Shown: one piece after another, positions 50,902 to 55,938 of the stretch | Layout of the letters: every line of letters begins with the position of its first letter | Numbering within the stretch: position 1 is the first letter of the stretch | Assembly (NCBI RefSeq): GCF_017874535.1 | Contig: NZ_JAGGLS010000001.1 | Coordinates: 1 to 64,000 of the forward strand | From: Anaerococcus nagyae | GTDB taxonomy: Bacteria; Bacillota; Clostridia; Tissierellales; Peptoniphilaceae | Reading direction: 5' to 3' | DNA: 64,000 nucleotides | Position numbers and translations under genes: made by a program | Notes under the pieces: model-generated | Databases searched by the model: none | What the model was told of the DNA's origin: nothing | Seen by the model: the letters and a program-made list of their open reading frames with translations, nothing else

Positions 50902-51645
50902 ATCCATTTCGACTAAAAAGATATAAAAAAGAGAGATCTCTCCATGCATTCGCTATCGCTCATTTAGTCGAGATGGTTTTTTTATTTTAAAATTAAAGCA
51001 TTATCCATTTCGACCAGAGCGAAGCGGAGTGGAGAAATCTAGCATAATCACTCTAATAACAAGATCTCTCCGCTCACTTCGTTCGGTCGAGATGGAATAT
51101 TTTTTACATTAATATCTTAGCGTAATACCTCCATTTCGACTGAAGCGAAACGGAGAAATCTCAGACCAAATACTGAGAGCTCTCCATGCATTCGCTATCG
51201 CTCATTTAGTCGAGATGGTTTTTTTATTTTAAAATTAAAGCACTATCCATTTCGACCAGAGCGAAGCGGAGTGGAGAAATCTAGCATAATCACTCTAATA
51301 ACAAGATCTCTCCGCTCACTTCGTTCGGTCGAGATGGGATATTTTTTACATTAATATCTTAGCGTAATACCTCCATTTCGGCTGAAGCGAAACGGAGAAA
51401 TCTCAGACCAAATACTGAGAGCTCTCCATGCATTCGCTATCGCTCATTTAGTCGAGATGGTTTTTTTATTTTAAAATTAAAGCACTATCCATTTCGACCA
51501 GAGCGAAGCGGAGTGGAGAAATCTAGCATAATCACTCTAATAACAAGATCTCTCCGCTCACTTCGTTCGGTCGAGATGGGATATTTTTTACATTAATATC
51601 TTAGCGTAATACCTCCATTTCGGCTGAAGTGAAATGGAGAAATCT
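50902..51645. repeat. Repeat array 2: about three tandem copies of a 242-bp unit
   Basis: Non-coding tandem array. The segment TCCATGCATTCGCTATCGCT recurs at 50941, 51183 and 51425, giving a 242-bp period with almost identical copies. Each unit holds several palindromic elements (CCATTTCGACCAGAGCGAAG ... and inverted TTCGTTCGGTCGAGATGG) of the same family as cluster 1. It separates glpA-like from the endolysin gene. Confidence 0.95.
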
Positions 51646-51659
51646 CTTTTATATTCACA

Positions 51660-52346
51660 TTACAAATCCATCCAAGAAAATCCCCTATAATTCTTATAAG
51701 CTACATATCTCCTCTTCCCGCTCTCTTGTCCTATATATGATAGCCAATAATAGCCATTTGCCTTAACAATACTATCATAATATATAACTTGACCAGGATG
51801 ATAACTTGATACTGCATGGGCATTTGTACTTGGAGCAGATCTAACATAGGTTGCCGCTTTTACCCTTGCCATTTTTATATGTGACTTATTTTTTAATTCT
51901 TTCTGATTTATAATTGGTCTAAAATATCTTTCATTTTCACTTCTTTTACAATCCAAAAAATACCTTATAAAACTCGATTCATTGTTTATGCTGACCGTTC
52001 CATTAAAGGCATTGCAATGTATTATCTCACCCTTTTTTAAGAAAATCCCAGTATGACCGGCTGCACCTAAGCTTCTCCCTTCTTTTCCCCTTATAAATAT
52101 ATCTCCAGACTTAATACTTTCATATGAATAAACTTCATCTAGAACTGTTCCTTTCAATTTATATAGAGTTTCAGTATTTCCTATAGGATGGTTGGTTGAT
52201 AAAAATCCTCCAGCTTTTAAGCTATAATATACAAAAGATGAACAATCCAGATATTCTGGGCCTAACCTTTGAGGATAAGCCATAGAATAACGGACTCTTC
52301 TGTGTTTACTTTTTGCATAATCTAACATGTTTTCAATTGATGACAT
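51660..52346 (-). CDS. Phage-type peptidoglycan amidase (Amidase_5/NlpC-like) with SH3 domain
   Basis: 228 residues from the ATG at 52346, which has AGGAG 5 bp upstream; the frame's GTG two codons earlier is too close to it. The N-terminal catalytic domain (IENMLDYAKSKHRRVRYSMAY ... YLDCSSFVYYSL, Cys nucleophile in DCSSF, His in AAGHTGIF) fits the bacteriophage peptidoglycan hydrolase family. A C-terminal SH3-type wall-binding domain (about 165-228, KAATYVRSAPSTNAHAVSSYHPGQVIYYDS) follows. No signal peptide, as for endolysins that need a holin. The YvrJ gene is 10 bp upstream. Confidence 0.88.
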   Translation of the reverse strand: MSSIENMLDYAKSKHRRVRYSMAYPQRLGPEYLDCSSFVYYSLKAGGFLSTNHPIGNTETLYKLKGTVLDEVYSYESIKSGDIFIRGKEGRSLGAAGHTGIFLKKGEIIHCNAFNGTVSINNESSFIRYFLDCKRSENERYFRPIINQKELKNKSHIKMARVKAATYVRSAPSTNAHAVSSYHPGQVIYYDSIVKANGYYWLSYIGQESGKRRYVAYKNYRGFSWMDL

Positions 52347-52356
52347 ATACACTCCT

Positions 52357-52488
52357 TTATTCCTTATTATTTTTAAGTTCTCTAATTTCCTTTAATATTT
52401 CATCAAGTTTTACATCTACTTTGTAAATCATGATGAGAGTTACTACTATCGGAAATCCTAAATCACCTATTAATTTTGTTATATCCAT
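52357..52488 (-). CDS. YvrJ-family small membrane protein
   Basis: 43 residues, starting MDITKLIGDLGFPIVVTLIM and ending with a charged helix (VDVKLDEILKEIRELKNNKE). One transmembrane helix (about 9-23) then an amphipathic C-terminal helix. The GFPIVV motif is diagnostic of YvrJ proteins, often found with small sigma factors and DUF1659/DUF2922 genes. Its size and topology resemble small holins. The SD is weak. It sits just before the endolysin. Confidence 0.85.
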   Translation of the reverse strand: MDITKLIGDLGFPIVVTLIMIYKVDVKLDEILKEIRELKNNKE

Positions 52489-52599
52489 TTAATATTTCGG
52501 CTAATTTCTAAAAAGCTTATTATCTTAATAGAAAAGACTATTTGTCAGTTTCTCTTTCAAAACTCCTTAAGATAGGTGCGCCACTCCTTTCTTTATAAT

Positions 52600-52668
52600 T
52601 TAGTCTTCTTTTTTTATTTCTTGATCGTCATTTTCTTCATTTTCTGAATATATTAAAATAACTGCCAT
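52600..52668 (-). CDS. Possible 22-residue peptide ORF
   Basis: MAVILIYSENEENDDQEIKK then ED and stop: a short hydrophobic start and acidic tail. It has a very good SD (AGGGGGTGAT) close to the ATG, but the promoter-like motif lies directly upstream, and the SD would sit at or before the expected transcription start. Not certain to be translated. Confidence 0.35.
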   Translation of the reverse strand: MAVILIYSENEENDDQEIKKED

Positions 52669-52681
52669 ATCATCACCCCCT

Positions 52682-52714
52682 ATATGTATATAGAAAAATA
52701 GTAAAATTTTTCCC
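52682..52714 (-). promoter_or_regulatory. Bipartite promoter-like motif upstream of the YvrJ/endolysin operon
   Basis: On the minus strand, GGGAAAAATT (52705-52714), 9-bp gap, TTCTATATACATAT (52682-52695). The identical pair with the identical gap precedes the DUF1659 gene at 54158-54190. It does not look like a sigma-A promoter (no TTGACA), so a special sigma factor is likely. Confidence 0.75.
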
Positions 52715-52852
52715 TTTAGCCTATATAGATCTTAGAAGCTTATTATGTTTACCTATTATCCATATAGACTTATTTTCTAAGCTTTATCTCTACTTATCCA
52801 ATTAAACTTTTCTGATAATTTGATATACCATACAAGTGTCGACAAATAAAAT

Positions 52853-52864
52853 AAGCGCGCGCTT
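52853..52864. promoter_or_regulatory. GC-rich palindrome before the sigma-factor start
   Basis: AAGCGCGCGCTT, a perfect 12-nt palindrome in very AT-rich DNA, 13 bp upstream of the sigma-factor ATG. It may be an operator or RNA hairpin near the SD. Function unknown. Confidence 0.35.
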
Positions 52865-52877
52865 TGAAAGGTTTAAT

Positions 52878-53390
52878 ATGCAAATAAATATAGACAATTC
52901 AGAGCAAATTATTGATGCTTATATGCCACTAATCAAGGCAAATGCCAGAAAATTTTCTAGATTTGAATACGATGAAATGATAGATGAATCAAAAATGTTA
53001 GCTATTGAAGCAATTTGTGAATACGATGAAAGTAAAGGGAGTTTTGGTAATTTCTTAAAGCTTAAGCTTTTGTATCATTATCTAGATAAATCAAAGATTG
53101 ATCCAGTAAATTCCTTGGATGATTTGGATAGCAATGGTCAAGCTATAATAGATACTTTAATAGATGACTTTGATTTTGAAGAAATGCTATTTAACAAAGA
53201 AGAATATAAATCTTTGTATAAGGCTATAAATAACTTAGATATGAAAGATAGAAAAATTATTATGTACAAGTTTTTTTATGATATGAACTTAGCCGAAATT
53301 GCTAAAGTGATGAATATTTCTTATAAAACGGTTGCTAATAGATCTAGTTTAGCTATAAAAAATTTGAGAAATTTTTATAAATTATCATAA
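52878..53390 (+). CDS. Small sigma-70-family sigma factor
   Basis: 170 residues from the ATG at 52878, preceded by AAAGG at 6 bp. The frame runs back to a GTG at 52836 without SD. Region 2 (about 8-75, IIDAYMPLIKANARKFSRFEYDEMIDESKMLAIEAICEYDESKGSFGNFLK) and region 4 (about 115-165, LYKAINNLDMKDRKIIMYKFFYDMNLAEIAKVMNISYKTVANRSSLAIKNL) are both present, with no region 1.1 or 3. It is the likely reader of the shared motif found on both flanking operons. Confidence 0.9.
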   Translation: MQINIDNSEQIIDAYMPLIKANARKFSRFEYDEMIDESKMLAIEAICEYDESKGSFGNFLKLKLLYHYLDKSKIDPVNSLDDLDSNGQAIIDTLIDDFDFEEMLFNKEEYKSLYKAINNLDMKDRKIIMYKFFYDMNLAEIAKVMNISYKTVANRSSLAIKNLRNFYKLS

Positions 53391-53429
53391 ATAAAGCAGA
53401 CTAAATAGCTTTATTATATTATCAATAAA

Positions 53430-53650
53430 TGAGATCTCTCCGCTCACTTCGTTCAGTCGAGTTGGGATATTTTTTACAATAACATTCTAGCACAAATACC
53501 ACCACACATTTCGACTGGAGCGAAGCGAAATGGAGAAATCTCTTGTAAGATTAAGAATTGGGATCTCTCCATGCATTCGCTACCACTCATTTAGTCGAGA
53601 CGGTTTTTTATTTTAAAATTAAAGCACTATCTATTTCGACCAGAGTGAGG
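53430..53650. repeat. Palindromic repeat cluster 3
   Basis: Two to three units of the REP/MITE-like family: GAGATCTCTCCGCTCACTTC (about 53430), CATTTCGACTGGAGCGAAGC (about 53510), CTCTCCATGCATTCGCTACC (about 53564). The last one ends near 53650, immediately before the DUF2922 operon terminator. Confidence 0.85.
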
Positions 53651-53651
53651 C

Positions 53652-53686
53652 AAAATAAAAATACGGAGATATTTATATACCTCCGC
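53652..53686 (-). terminator. Terminator of the DUF1659-DUF2922 operon
   Basis: Minus-strand stem GCGGAGGTAT/ATATCTCCGT (10 bp with two G-U pairs), 4-nt loop, then ATTTTTATTTT. Confidence 0.75.
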
Positions 53687-53699
53687 ATCTTTTCACATA

Positions 53700-53921
53700 T
53701 TAAGCTATTGTAAGTTCTTCTCTATCTATTGTTTCTATTTCAGCTTTAGCCTTATTTGCTAATGGTCCATTTTTGGTTAATAGTACTCCTGATTTAATCA
53801 TAGAATCCATAGCTAGTTTTATATCTTCTGATGTATAGCTTCCTTTAGGATAATCTACTGTAACTGATTTTGAATTATTTGCTTGATCTTTAAAATATAA
53901 TTTTAATTTTCTGCTTGCCAT
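53700..53921 (-). CDS. DUF2922 small protein
   Basis: 73 residues, MASRKLKLYFKDQANNSKSVTVDYPKGS... with the family's conserved LTKNGPLANKAKAEIE-like C-terminal half. Predicted small beta-alpha protein without signal or TM. It lies 14 bp after the DUF1659 gene; the two are nearly always partners. Function unknown. Confidence 0.88.
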   Translation of the reverse strand: MASRKLKLYFKDQANNSKSVTVDYPKGSYTSEDIKLAMDSMIKSGVLLTKNGPLANKAKAEIETIDREELTIA

Positions 53922-53935
53922 TTATATATCCTCCC

Positions 53936-54121
53936 TTATATTTCCTTAACATCTATTAAATATACTTCGACTTCTGTAGCATCTACTAAAGCAGTATATG
54001 CTAGAGCAAAGTTTTTGAAGTTTTCTGCACCTGCATTTTCATCTATTTGAGAAAATGTCTTGCTTACTTTTTTTAATGATCCTTCTTCTGATTCAACTTT
54101 AAATTTGATTTGTAATTTCAT
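53936..54121 (-). CDS. DUF1659 small protein
   Basis: 61 residues: MKLQIKFKVESEEGSLKKVS then KTFSQIDENAGAENFKNFALAYTALVDATEVEVYLIDVKEI. DUF1659 features: KTFSxI...A...F..A...L...EVYLIDVKEI. SD GGAGG. First gene of the two-gene operon, 37 bp downstream of the bipartite motif. Confidence 0.88.
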   Translation of the reverse strand: MKLQIKFKVESEEGSLKKVSKTFSQIDENAGAENFKNFALAYTALVDATEVEVYLIDVKEI

Positions 54122-54157
54122 ATTTTCCTCCGTTTTTTGTTTTTGTAGTGGCCCTAC

Positions 54158-54190
54158 ATATGTATATAGAAATCAAGAGGAATTTTTCCC
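54158..54190 (-). promoter_or_regulatory. Bipartite promoter-like motif upstream of DUF1659-DUF2922
   Basis: Minus strand: GGGAAAAATT (54181-54190), 9-bp gap, TTCTATATACATAT (54158-54171), identical to the copy at 52682-52714. The intervening 9 bp differ (CCTCTTGAT versus TTACTATTT), which argues the blocks themselves are what is conserved. Confidence 0.78.
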
Positions 54191-54480: not shown

Positions 54481-55938
54481 TTAGTTATTTTTTTTGCTTG
54501 CTGCGTAAGCAACTGAAGCTGCTGCTAATACACCTGCAACACCAGCAACACCAGCAATACCTGTTTTAGCATTACGTCCAGCTGTTCTGTTTGAAGAAGC
54601 TTTTTTAGATGGTGTAACAACATTTGTTACTTTTTCATCTTTTTTATCTTCTTTTTTGTCTTCTTTTTTGTCTTCTTCTTTGTTGTCTTTTTTATCTTCT
54701 TTTTTGTCTTCTTCTTTGTTGTCTTTTTTATCTTCTTTTTTGTCTTCTTCTTTATTGTCTTTTTTATCTTCTTTTTTATCTTCGATTTCTTCTTCTTTGT
54801 CGATTGCTTCTATAGCATCTTGTAATTCAGCATCTTTGTCTCTGATCTTGTTTGTAAGATCCTTAACATCATATTCTTCTTCAACTGCTTCTTCTTCAGC
54901 AGCATATGCTGTTGAGAATACAGAGAAAGCTACTTTTTTGTAGTTGTAATCTTTAAGTGCAGCTTCACCTTTTTTGATTAGTTCGTTAGCTTCTTTTACT
55001 AATTTGTTAAGGTAAGCTTCATTTTTATCTGAAATGTGTTCAGCTTTCTTTTTAAGAATATCAACAGCTTTAAGTGTTGCTTTAGCATCTTGGATAGCTG
55101 CATCGAGTTCAGCTAATTCTTCTTTTGTTGGAGCTTTTTTAGATGGTTTTTCTTCTTTATCTGCATCAATAACGATATTGATGTCACCTGCTTTTTCAGC
55201 TTTGTTTATTGTATCGACAGAAAGACCTTCTGAGATTAATTCTGCTTTAGCTTTATCATATGTGCCTGTCTTAGCATTGTTTGTTAATTTTGCTAATACA
55301 TTTTTAGCTTCTTGTGTTTTATTCTTAGCTTCGTTGTAATCCCCAAGTCTTCTAGAAACTTCTGATTGAAGTTCTGATCTTTTATTTTCTACTTCTTTAT
55401 ATTCATCTTTAAGAGCTTTTTTTCTTTCATTTAATGAAATGATGTCTTTGATAGCTTCAGCTTGAGCTTCTTGAGATGGTTGATCTACAGATTGATCAAT
55501 ATATTGTGAGAAATTATTTAAATATTTCTCAGTTAAATAATCATAGTTAGGTTTTCCTGTAAATCCTGAAGAAATGTTTCCTTCATATTTTTGTATAGCT
55601 GCTTGTCTTTCAGAATCAACTCTATCAACATCTTCTTGATATTTAGAATCTGGATCATTTGCAACTTTTCCGTATCTAGCTTCAAGTTCAGCTAATTTTT
55701 GAAGAGCTTTTTCGTAATTAGCTTCTGCTGTAGCTTCTGAAGCTTTTGCAGATTCTAAATTTTTCTCAGCATTTCTAACCTTGTTCCATTCTTTTACGAA
55801 TTCTTCTTTTGCTTTTTTATAATCATATGTGTATTCAGATGGTTTTGTATCTTTTCCCTCAGCAGCAAATGATGGAGCTACTGCACTTAAACCCATTGCT
55901 AATGCTAATGCACCAGCAGCAATTTTATTTCTTTTCAT
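54481..55938 (-). CDS. Surface coiled-coil protein with KKEDKKDNKEED repeats and sorting-like C-terminus
   Basis: 485 residues. Signal peptide to about residue 25 (AVAPSFA). Long helical, coiled-coil region (about 40-330, with EKNLESAKASEATAEANYEK and similar). A repeat block of 12-residue units KKEDKKDNKEED (about 385-435) follows, likely a wall-spanning spacer. The C-terminus is NAKTG, a hydrophobic run (IAGVAGVAGVLAAASVAYA) and SKKNN, which is like an LPXTG-type signal with a variant motif. SD AAGGAG. A promoter precedes it. Function unknown; possibly adhesin or wall-binding. Confidence 0.8.
   Translation of the reverse strand: MKRNKIAAGALALAMGLSAVAPSFAAEGKDTKPSEYTYDYKKAKEEFVKEWNKVRNAEKNLESAKASEATAEANYEKALQKLAELEARYGKVANDPDSKYQEDVDRVDSERQAAIQKYEGNISSGFTGKPNYDYLTEKYLNNFSQYIDQSVDQPSQEAQAEAIKDIISLNERKKALKDEYKEVENKRSELQSEVSRRLGDYNEAKNKTQEAKNVLAKLTNNAKTGTYDKAKAELISEGLSVDTINKAEKAGDINIVIDADKEEKPSKKAPTKEELAELDAAIQDAKATLKAVDILKKKAEHISDKNEAYLNKLVKEANELIKKGEAALKDYNYKKVAFSVFSTAYAAEEEAVEEEYDVKDLTNKIRDKDAELQDAIEAIDKEEEIEDKKEDKKDNKEEDKKEDKKDNKEEDKKEDKKDNKEEDKKEDKKEDKKDEKVTNVVTPSKKASSNRTAGRNAKTGIAGVAGVAGVLAAASVAYAASKKNN
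54645..54786. repeat. 36-bp tandem repeat encoding KKEDKKDNKEED
   Basis: The DNA repeats with a 36-bp period: TGTTGTC at 54681 and 54717, TATTGTC at 54753. It gives just over three in-frame 12-residue units and can vary in copy number. Confidence 0.9.

Follow-up and report, generated by a model that had tools for sequence, protein, structure and literature searches.

A small sigma factor, a shared promoter class and a holin-like/amidase gene pair suggest a competence-type module in Anaerococcus nagyae and other Clostridia

We analysed the first 64,000 nucleotides (nt) of contig NZ_JAGGLS010000001.1 of Anaerococcus nagyae (assembly GCF_017874535.1; genome size 1.75 Mb), hereafter the window, and focused on a small alternative sigma factor gene that sits between two operons on the opposite strand, one encoding YvrJ and a cell-wall amidase, the other DUF1659 and DUF2922 (Table 1). 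An earlier reading of this DNA, made from the letters alone (the sequence-only reading), had placed these five genes, and both the coordinates and the Pfam assignments agree with it. To these genes we add a promoter element shared by the two operons, a micro-open reading frame (micro-ORF) in the YvrJ operon and a ComK-like gene ~2.3 kb past DUF1659. In line with the same reading, no phage structural genes were seen by eye among the window ORFs of at least 100 amino acids (aa).

Table 1. Genes and promoter elements at the A. nagyae locus (window positions)
Feature	Position	Strand	Evidence
Amidase, Amidase_5 (NlpC/P60-like) + SH3b	51660..52352	-	Pfam Amidase_5 E=1.4e-31 plus SH3_5; PHROG_998 endolysin 2.3e-25
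YvrJ, 43 aa, holin-like	52357..52488	-	PF12841 3.7e-9; PHROG_4898 holin 1.7e-6
Micro-ORF, 22 aa, MAVILIYSENEENDDQEIKKED	52600..52668	-	read from sequence
Putative YvrJ-operon promoter (micro-ORF/YvrJ/amidase), GGGAAAAATTTTACTATTTTTCTATATA	52687..52714	-	0 mismatches; leave-one-out 26.7 bits; within repeat D6
Small alternative sigma factor	52878..53390	+	Sigma70_r4_2 2.3e-9; TIGR02937 4.7e-16
DUF2922, 73 aa	53700..53921	-	PF11148 1e-16
DUF1659, 61 aa	53936..54121	-	PF07872 5.2e-9
Putative DUF1659-DUF2922 operon promoter, GGGAAAAATTCCTCTTGATTTCTATATA	54163..54190	-	0 mismatches; leave-one-out 32.2 bits; within repeat D6
ComK-like transcription factor, 163 aa	56381..56872	-	member of family A1

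The sigma factor is of the small two-region type, with regions 2 and 4 and no region 3. TIGR02937 (sigma-70 family) spans residues 23-179 of the 184-aa frame (open from 52836) and is matched almost end to end by this one frame (4-163 of 165), and Pfam recognised region 4 while its region-2 and region-3 models had no match. As read from the sequence, the start at 52878 has an AAAGG site and is a better fit than the GTG at 52836, and the likely true start of the amidase is the ATG at 52346. By eye, no signal peptide was seen at the amidase N-terminus and YvrJ has a single hydrophobic segment.

The minus-strand element that precedes both operons reads GGGAAAAATT-N8-TTTCTATATA (GGGAAA, 12 nt, TTTCTATATA), and a mechanical repeat search returned a 33-nt pair, D6, that contains both copies. 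At 0-1 mismatch the A. nagyae genome holds three such sites (those of both operons and C1:366108-366135), with two further promoter-like sites at 3 mismatches. The class can be written as GGGA[AC]A - 12 nt - TTTCTATATA. Across the 31 genomes of the genus a strict pattern gave 38 matches vs 8 for the reversed control; by hand comparison of positions, 26 of the 38 immediately precede one of the two operons, and the other 12 lie elsewhere, some within coding sequence. We then relied on the 23 genus genomes in which YvrJ, DUF1659 and the sigma factor were all detected, the remaining eight being seven without a detected YvrJ, plus G025, in which neither YvrJ nor DUF1659 was detected. A leave-one-out weight matrix, trained on sites pattern-picked from the same upstream regions and excluding the scored genome each time, found a site of at least 12 bits before the DUF1659 operon in 22/23 genomes and before the YvrJ operon in 22/23. 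The exception is G038, both operons of which carry the element with a spacer one base shorter. At the same threshold there were no matches in 258,290 strand-bases of background (129 kb, both strands), made up of T2SSE loci plus two others rather than of random genome.

In 14 of the 23 genomes the three units are separated by over 20 kb or fall on separate contigs, and the shared element is therefore not a by-product of a shared neighbourhood. The seven genomes without a detected YvrJ have a related (G)GGACA...CTATATA element before DUF1659, with a different spacing. In loci titled Peptoniphilus, Anaerosphaera or Peptoniphilaceae, an element of the same 28-nt length, AG[CT]AACTT...T[TA][CT]TAT, precedes DUF1659 in 14/17. 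That a single promoter class would control both operons, as the sequence-only reading had supposed when it assigned them to this sigma factor, is well supported by these sequence comparisons.

The variation among promoters also follows the sigma factor itself. In region 4.2, the residue after KT[VI] is Arg in six of the 23 genomes (G009, G013, G014, G017, G018, G028), Thr in G021, and Ala, Phe or Ser in the remaining 16. The fifth base of the -35 element of the DUF1659 operon is C in 7/7 Arg/Thr genomes vs 0/16 Ala/Phe/Ser genomes, and that of the YvrJ operon is C in 7/7 vs 1/16 (G030); the YvrJ-operon sites of G020 and G027 have T at this position. Fisher values for the association are 4e-6 and 3e-5, counting genomes, which are related, and not independent events. 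In the sigma tree, G028 stands apart from the other five Arg genomes, such that the Arg type is seen in at least two places. This co-variation is what a base-contacting residue would give, and it strengthens the assignment of both operons to this sigma factor. The sigma gene itself, in several Peptoniphilus loci, lies by eye behind a housekeeping-type TTGACA-TATAAT promoter.

Sites of the promoter class were also observed at other places. One genome has five promoter-like copies ~83 nt apart, in a row before DUF1659 (G001:C20:6415-6773; L086). The third A. nagyae site (minus strand; L097 8109-8136) lies directly behind a MatE gene and runs antisense into a DUF7916 gene (Pfam) with an interrupted frame. 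At the matching spot in G016 (L127), the promoter precedes a Dam-type DNA methyltransferase gene, which is followed by a DUF6996/6997/7226 gene, perhaps its restriction partner. Additional sites in relatives (L126, L129, L137, L138, L133, L134) stand before an HsdM-type methylase gene and a peptidase S51 gene, others, in the two species G016 and G031, before an S-adenosylmethionine (SAM) hydrolase gene, and those in G025 and G033 before a gene starting MIV.RVKK (HTH_36 in G025).

The sequence-only reading had further suggested, as a test, that these families should be found together in other genomes, and this is what we observed. Among 130 genomes of the family, A. nagyae included, DUF1659 is present in 94, DUF2922 in 101 and YvrJ in 86, while relatives of the sigma factor (sigma-70, E<=0.001, any subfamily) occur in 114. 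The best 80 of the 314 YvrJ loci found, all of them named, carry DUF1659 at most 5 kb from YvrJ in 70 cases and DUF2922 in 72. The grouping of the module genes is far beyond chance. Four Paenibacillus loci have the order sigma-YvrJ-sigma. Judged by titles and the starts of abstracts, and with most subscription papers outside the search, we found no description of the module in the literature.

An Amidase_5-type gene stands beside YvrJ in 23/23 YvrJ loci of the genus (by Pfam for the window and by a sequence marker for the other 22) and, in another genus, at L023. In Peptoniphilus and others, the operon runs sigma, short Amidase_2 endolysin, DUF1659, DUF2922, YvrJ, the Amidase_2 identity being given by Pfam (1.7e-25) for L011 and L154. 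Since two unrelated wall amidases keep the same partners, these findings suggest that wall cutting is the point of the association. The amidase is not adjacent in every branch; 29 of the 80 named loci showed an Amidase_2 relative no more than 5 kb from YvrJ. YvrJ belongs to a family annotated as holin (PHROG_4898) and its gene adjoins an endolysin-type gene; we thus regard it as a putative holin, and the pairing of a holin-like YvrJ with an endolysin, already proposed from the sequence alone, holds across the 23 YvrJ loci of the genus. Among 14 YvrJ members, BhlA matched none and XhlA matched one, weakly. We also examined 31 viral YvrJ loci, fetched with the YvrJ alignment, and with the profiles used none of them had DUF1659, DUF2922, the sigma factor or the ComK-like gene. 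In two of the eight viral contigs whose neighbours were examined, YvrJ precedes an endolysin gene, namely a glucosaminidase endolysin in L328 and, after a small ORF, an M15-type endolysin in L353; in the other six no clear endolysin lies next to YvrJ.

DUF1659 and DUF2922 are both modelled as beta-beta-alpha-beta (E-E-H-E) proteins, with mean predicted local distance difference test (pLDDT) values of 91.8 and 77.1, respectively. Their profiles align at only 32% probability, although the predicted topologies agree. Foldseek gave no significant match for either model, and the best VIA-align Z scores (5.3 and 4.4), with phi29 p6 first or tied first for both and p56, T7 gp2 and Dmd among the rest, are too weak to use. 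Neither family matches a PHROG, and a tblastn search with the window DUF2922, in which DUF1659 was not included, returned nothing from phage or plasmid records. Possible roles include exported cargo, DNA-handling proteins or regulators. As judged by title, and again with most subscription papers outside the search, we found no paper devoted to DUF1659 or DUF2922.

The micro-ORF lies directly behind the YvrJ-operon promoter, its ribosome site adjoining the -10 element. In 10/23 genomes, this one included, the promoter is followed by an ORF of this kind, 21-25 aa long, that begins with a short hydrophobic stretch and ends in an acidic tail.

In Bacillus, ComK is the master regulator of DNA uptake; it binds K-boxes and activates late competence genes. 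The ComK-like gene of the window belongs to family A1, present in 49/130 genomes; 10/17 members of its alignment match Pfam ComK (PF06338) at E up to 5 (best 3.4e-7), and every other Pfam family matches only one member. In 40/49 genomes no more than 12 kb separates the A1 gene from a module gene (no more than 1.5 kb in 23); it is on another contig in eight and 278 kb away in one, and DUF2922 is present in 48/49. PF06338 exceeds the cut-off in 2/130 genomes, both times beside the module, and also in L315. Among the 80 named loci, a ComK-like gene is found within 5 kb of YvrJ in 22, and 13 of these 22 genes match Pfam ComK at E up to 1 (best 1.5e-6); the two ComK-like sets align at 99.9% probability. 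Loci of Tepidanaerobacter, Thermosediminibacter, Thermovorax and Fervidicola share the order DUF1659-DUF2922-YvrJ-amidase-ComK.

Within 5 kb of YvrJ, the named loci also contain recD2 (10), comFC (9) and metK (9), the recD2 loci being ordered metK-(sigma)-DUF1659-DUF2922-YvrJ-(ComK)-recD2-comFC; seven of the ten loci with recD2 nearby have a ComK-like gene. The metK-recD2-comFC order may predate the insertion. A module linked in this way to a ComK-like regulator, and in some taxa also to recD2-comFC, points towards competence and away from toxin release. Natural competence has been reported for Parvimonas micra, a member of the same family (PMC9045310), the searchable text of which, as far as it was available, contains neither 'comK' nor 'comX'.

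Considering all the above results, we propose, with a probability of about one half, that the locus is a ComK/sigma-regulated holin-amidase module that opens the wall or lyses a subpopulation, probably within a competence-type programme. The ComK-family activator and the dedicated small sigma factor would together form a switch, the ComK-like protein presumably acting on or with the sigma factor. The sigma holoenzyme would then fire both operons, whether or not these lie near the sigma gene. In A. nagyae, the products of the first operon would be the micropeptide, which is acidic, the holin candidate YvrJ and a peptidoglycan amidase without a signal; DUF1659 and DUF2922, both small and with a predicted beta-beta-alpha-beta fold, would come from the second. 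YvrJ, by analogy with phage and UviB-type holins, may let the amidase reach the wall, and the induced subpopulation would open its wall or lyse, thereby releasing DNA or making way for its uptake. Three things lead us to infer that such wall opening or lysis serves competence: the membership of the regulator in the ComK family, the neighbouring recD2-comFC genes and the example of LytA/CbpD in pneumococcal competence.

Several of our observations weigh against this proposal. The genus genomes without detected YvrJ (G010-G012, G024, G035-G037) keep DUF1659, DUF2922, the sigma factor and the ComK-like gene, and the amidase marker is absent from their fetched loci; therefore, DUF1659 and DUF2922 are not mere lysis helpers. 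With the pattern used, the micro-ORF was not found in 13/23 genomes. A looser motif search across the family was little above its reversed control outside the genus (48 vs 31), and for this reason we relied there on DUF1659 promoters read directly. As for the regulator, the window ComK-like protein itself does not match PF06338, most PF06338 matches are below the cut-off, and among the 22 ComK-like members of the named loci three also match LytTR and three FlbD. The ComK-like gene was recognised in only 49/130 genomes vs 101 for DUF2922, and none was found in Peptoniphilus (g36) at the search threshold.

The uptake machinery also tells against a direct competence regulon. Not one of the 38 strict promoter matches has the T2SSE or ComEC gene of its genome within 5 kb (compared by hand). 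In 28 intact loci, the ~1.4 kb preceding T2SSE lacks the element; in many of these loci a yifB-like gene precedes T2SSE, with its own upstream region mostly outside the search. Uptake or pilus genes under the sigma promoter were thus not found in a test that covered strong sites at T2SSE and ComEC, the latter by position only. Moreover, no obvious comGB or comGC lies beside T2SSE in the three intact loci read, and ComEC is present in 124/130 genomes regardless of the module, giving no presence/absence contrast. Two loci, L245 and L246, were not among the 28 intact ones: in these (G023 and G019) the T2SSE gene (ComGA/PilB-like) is split into two distant pieces, and the break carries a serine-recombinase-type gene. 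G031 (L230) has an intact T2SSE gene, which stands beside a YifB-like gene.

A wider formulation would see in this locus a hitherto unrecognised competence control locus of many Clostridia, in which a ComK-family activator and the sigma factor run a DNA-exchange programme. Its effectors would be the holin-amidase pair, DUF1659/DUF2922 as DNA-handling or exported proteins, and the micropeptide, joined in some species by DNA methyltransferases and a SAM hydrolase that this promoter class would also drive. We consider this possible and put it forward tentatively.

The shared promoter could also be read as that of an envelope or acid stress regulon of the SigO type, where YvrJ and the amidase would serve wall remodelling and have nothing to do with DNA exchange. 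According to the available part of PMC8103513, SigO-RsoA transcribes yvrJ and oxdC-yvrL in B. subtilis, and the sigma-YvrJ-sigma arrangement of the four Paenibacillus loci agrees with such a regulon. The linkage to a ComK-like gene and the recD2-comFC neighbourhood, on the other hand, are not expected of an acid-stress regulon, and no oxdC was noticed, although no search was aimed at it; we find this explanation unlikely. We deem it quite unlikely that the module serves holin-dependent export, as in the UviA-UviB or TcdR-TcdE systems or in type 10 (holin/endolysin) secretion, with the signal-less DUF1659 and DUF2922 as candidate cargo that the sigma factor would co-express with the holin and the amidase, and with little or no lysis. 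A promoter class common to DUF1659/DUF2922 and YvrJ would fit such export, as would the position of both DUF genes upstream of YvrJ in most of the 80 named loci. Yet the seven genomes described above retain the would-be cargo with its regulators and have no detected YvrJ or amidase marker, both families are widespread in Clostridia, unlike most toxin or bacteriocin cargo, and the loci read showed no gene for a toxin or a bacteriocin.

The release of a toxin or bacteriocin, which the sequence-only reading had offered along with a domesticated lysis module, was rejected: the loci read showed no cargo gene, DUF1659 and DUF2922 have no PHROG, and tblastn with the window DUF2922 gave nothing from phage or plasmid records. 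The lysis part of that proposal is partly borne out, being consistent with the holin and endolysin families. YvrJ and both amidase types do match phage families, and the 31 viral loci hold YvrJ relatives, as would a phage lysis cassette kept without function. With the profiles used, none of these loci has DUF1659, DUF2922, the sigma factor or the ComK-like gene, and the genus-wide conservation of genes and promoters, together with the co-varying sigma-promoter pair, speaks for selection and not decay. We therefore rejected a prophage remnant on this conservation, and consider it very improbable.

Other features of the window surround the module. Between the DUF operon and the ComK-like gene, a minus-strand ORF (54481-55938) encodes a 485-aa protein with KKEDKKDNKEED repeats; it has, by eye, a signal-like start and a hydrophobic end, and no Pfam match. 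Downstream of the amidase gene, a 242-nt repeat is present in three tandem near-identical copies (94-97%; 50926-51651), and diverged partial copies of it lie between the sigma gene and DUF2922 (53432-53666).

Altogether, a ComK-like gene, a dedicated sigma factor with its putative promoter and a holin-like/amidase pair provide a concrete set of regulators and effectors that can be tested in anaerobes, and DUF1659 and DUF2922, widespread families of unknown function, gain a regulatory context. In addition, the sigma-promoter pair offers a specificity shift that can be read in the sequence. More broadly, our results suggest a controlled opening or lysis of the wall tied to gene exchange in anaerobic bacteria.

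Parts of this arrangement have counterparts in known systems. The likeness to Bacillus ComK consists of Pfam ComK matches at permissive thresholds (13/22 and 10/17 ComK-like members), whereas a ComK gene together with a sigma factor, a holin and an amidase was not found described in titles and abstract starts. With SigO-RsoA of B. subtilis the module shares the transcription of yvrJ by a non-standard sigma factor, as described in the available part of PMC8103513. SigO-RsoA is, however, split in two proteins and drives oxdC, while here a single sigma protein is found, along with the amidase, DUF1659, DUF2922 and the ComK-like gene. In S. pneumoniae, the available text of PMC12029793 describes ComX with LytA/CbpD as a competence sigma factor, an amidase lacking a signal peptide and a lysis that feeds DNA exchange; its account of the lytA operon, as far as available, names no holin. 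The Cin box of ComX, TACGAATA, is a different promoter from that of the module, and the competence link is here given by neighbourhood alone, no com gene having been found under the sigma promoter. UviA-UviB-amidase-Bcn5 of C. perfringens and TcdR-TcdE of C. difficile combine, in the part of PMC9527704 that was available, a small sigma factor, a small holin, a cell-wall amidase and proteins lacking a signal under common regulation. The holin is here YvrJ instead of BhlA, no toxin or bacteriocin was seen, and DUF1659, DUF2922, the micropeptide, the ComK-like regulator and a promoter class of its own are added. These two systems and ComX with LytA/CbpD are the closest working analogues of the A. 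nagyae module.

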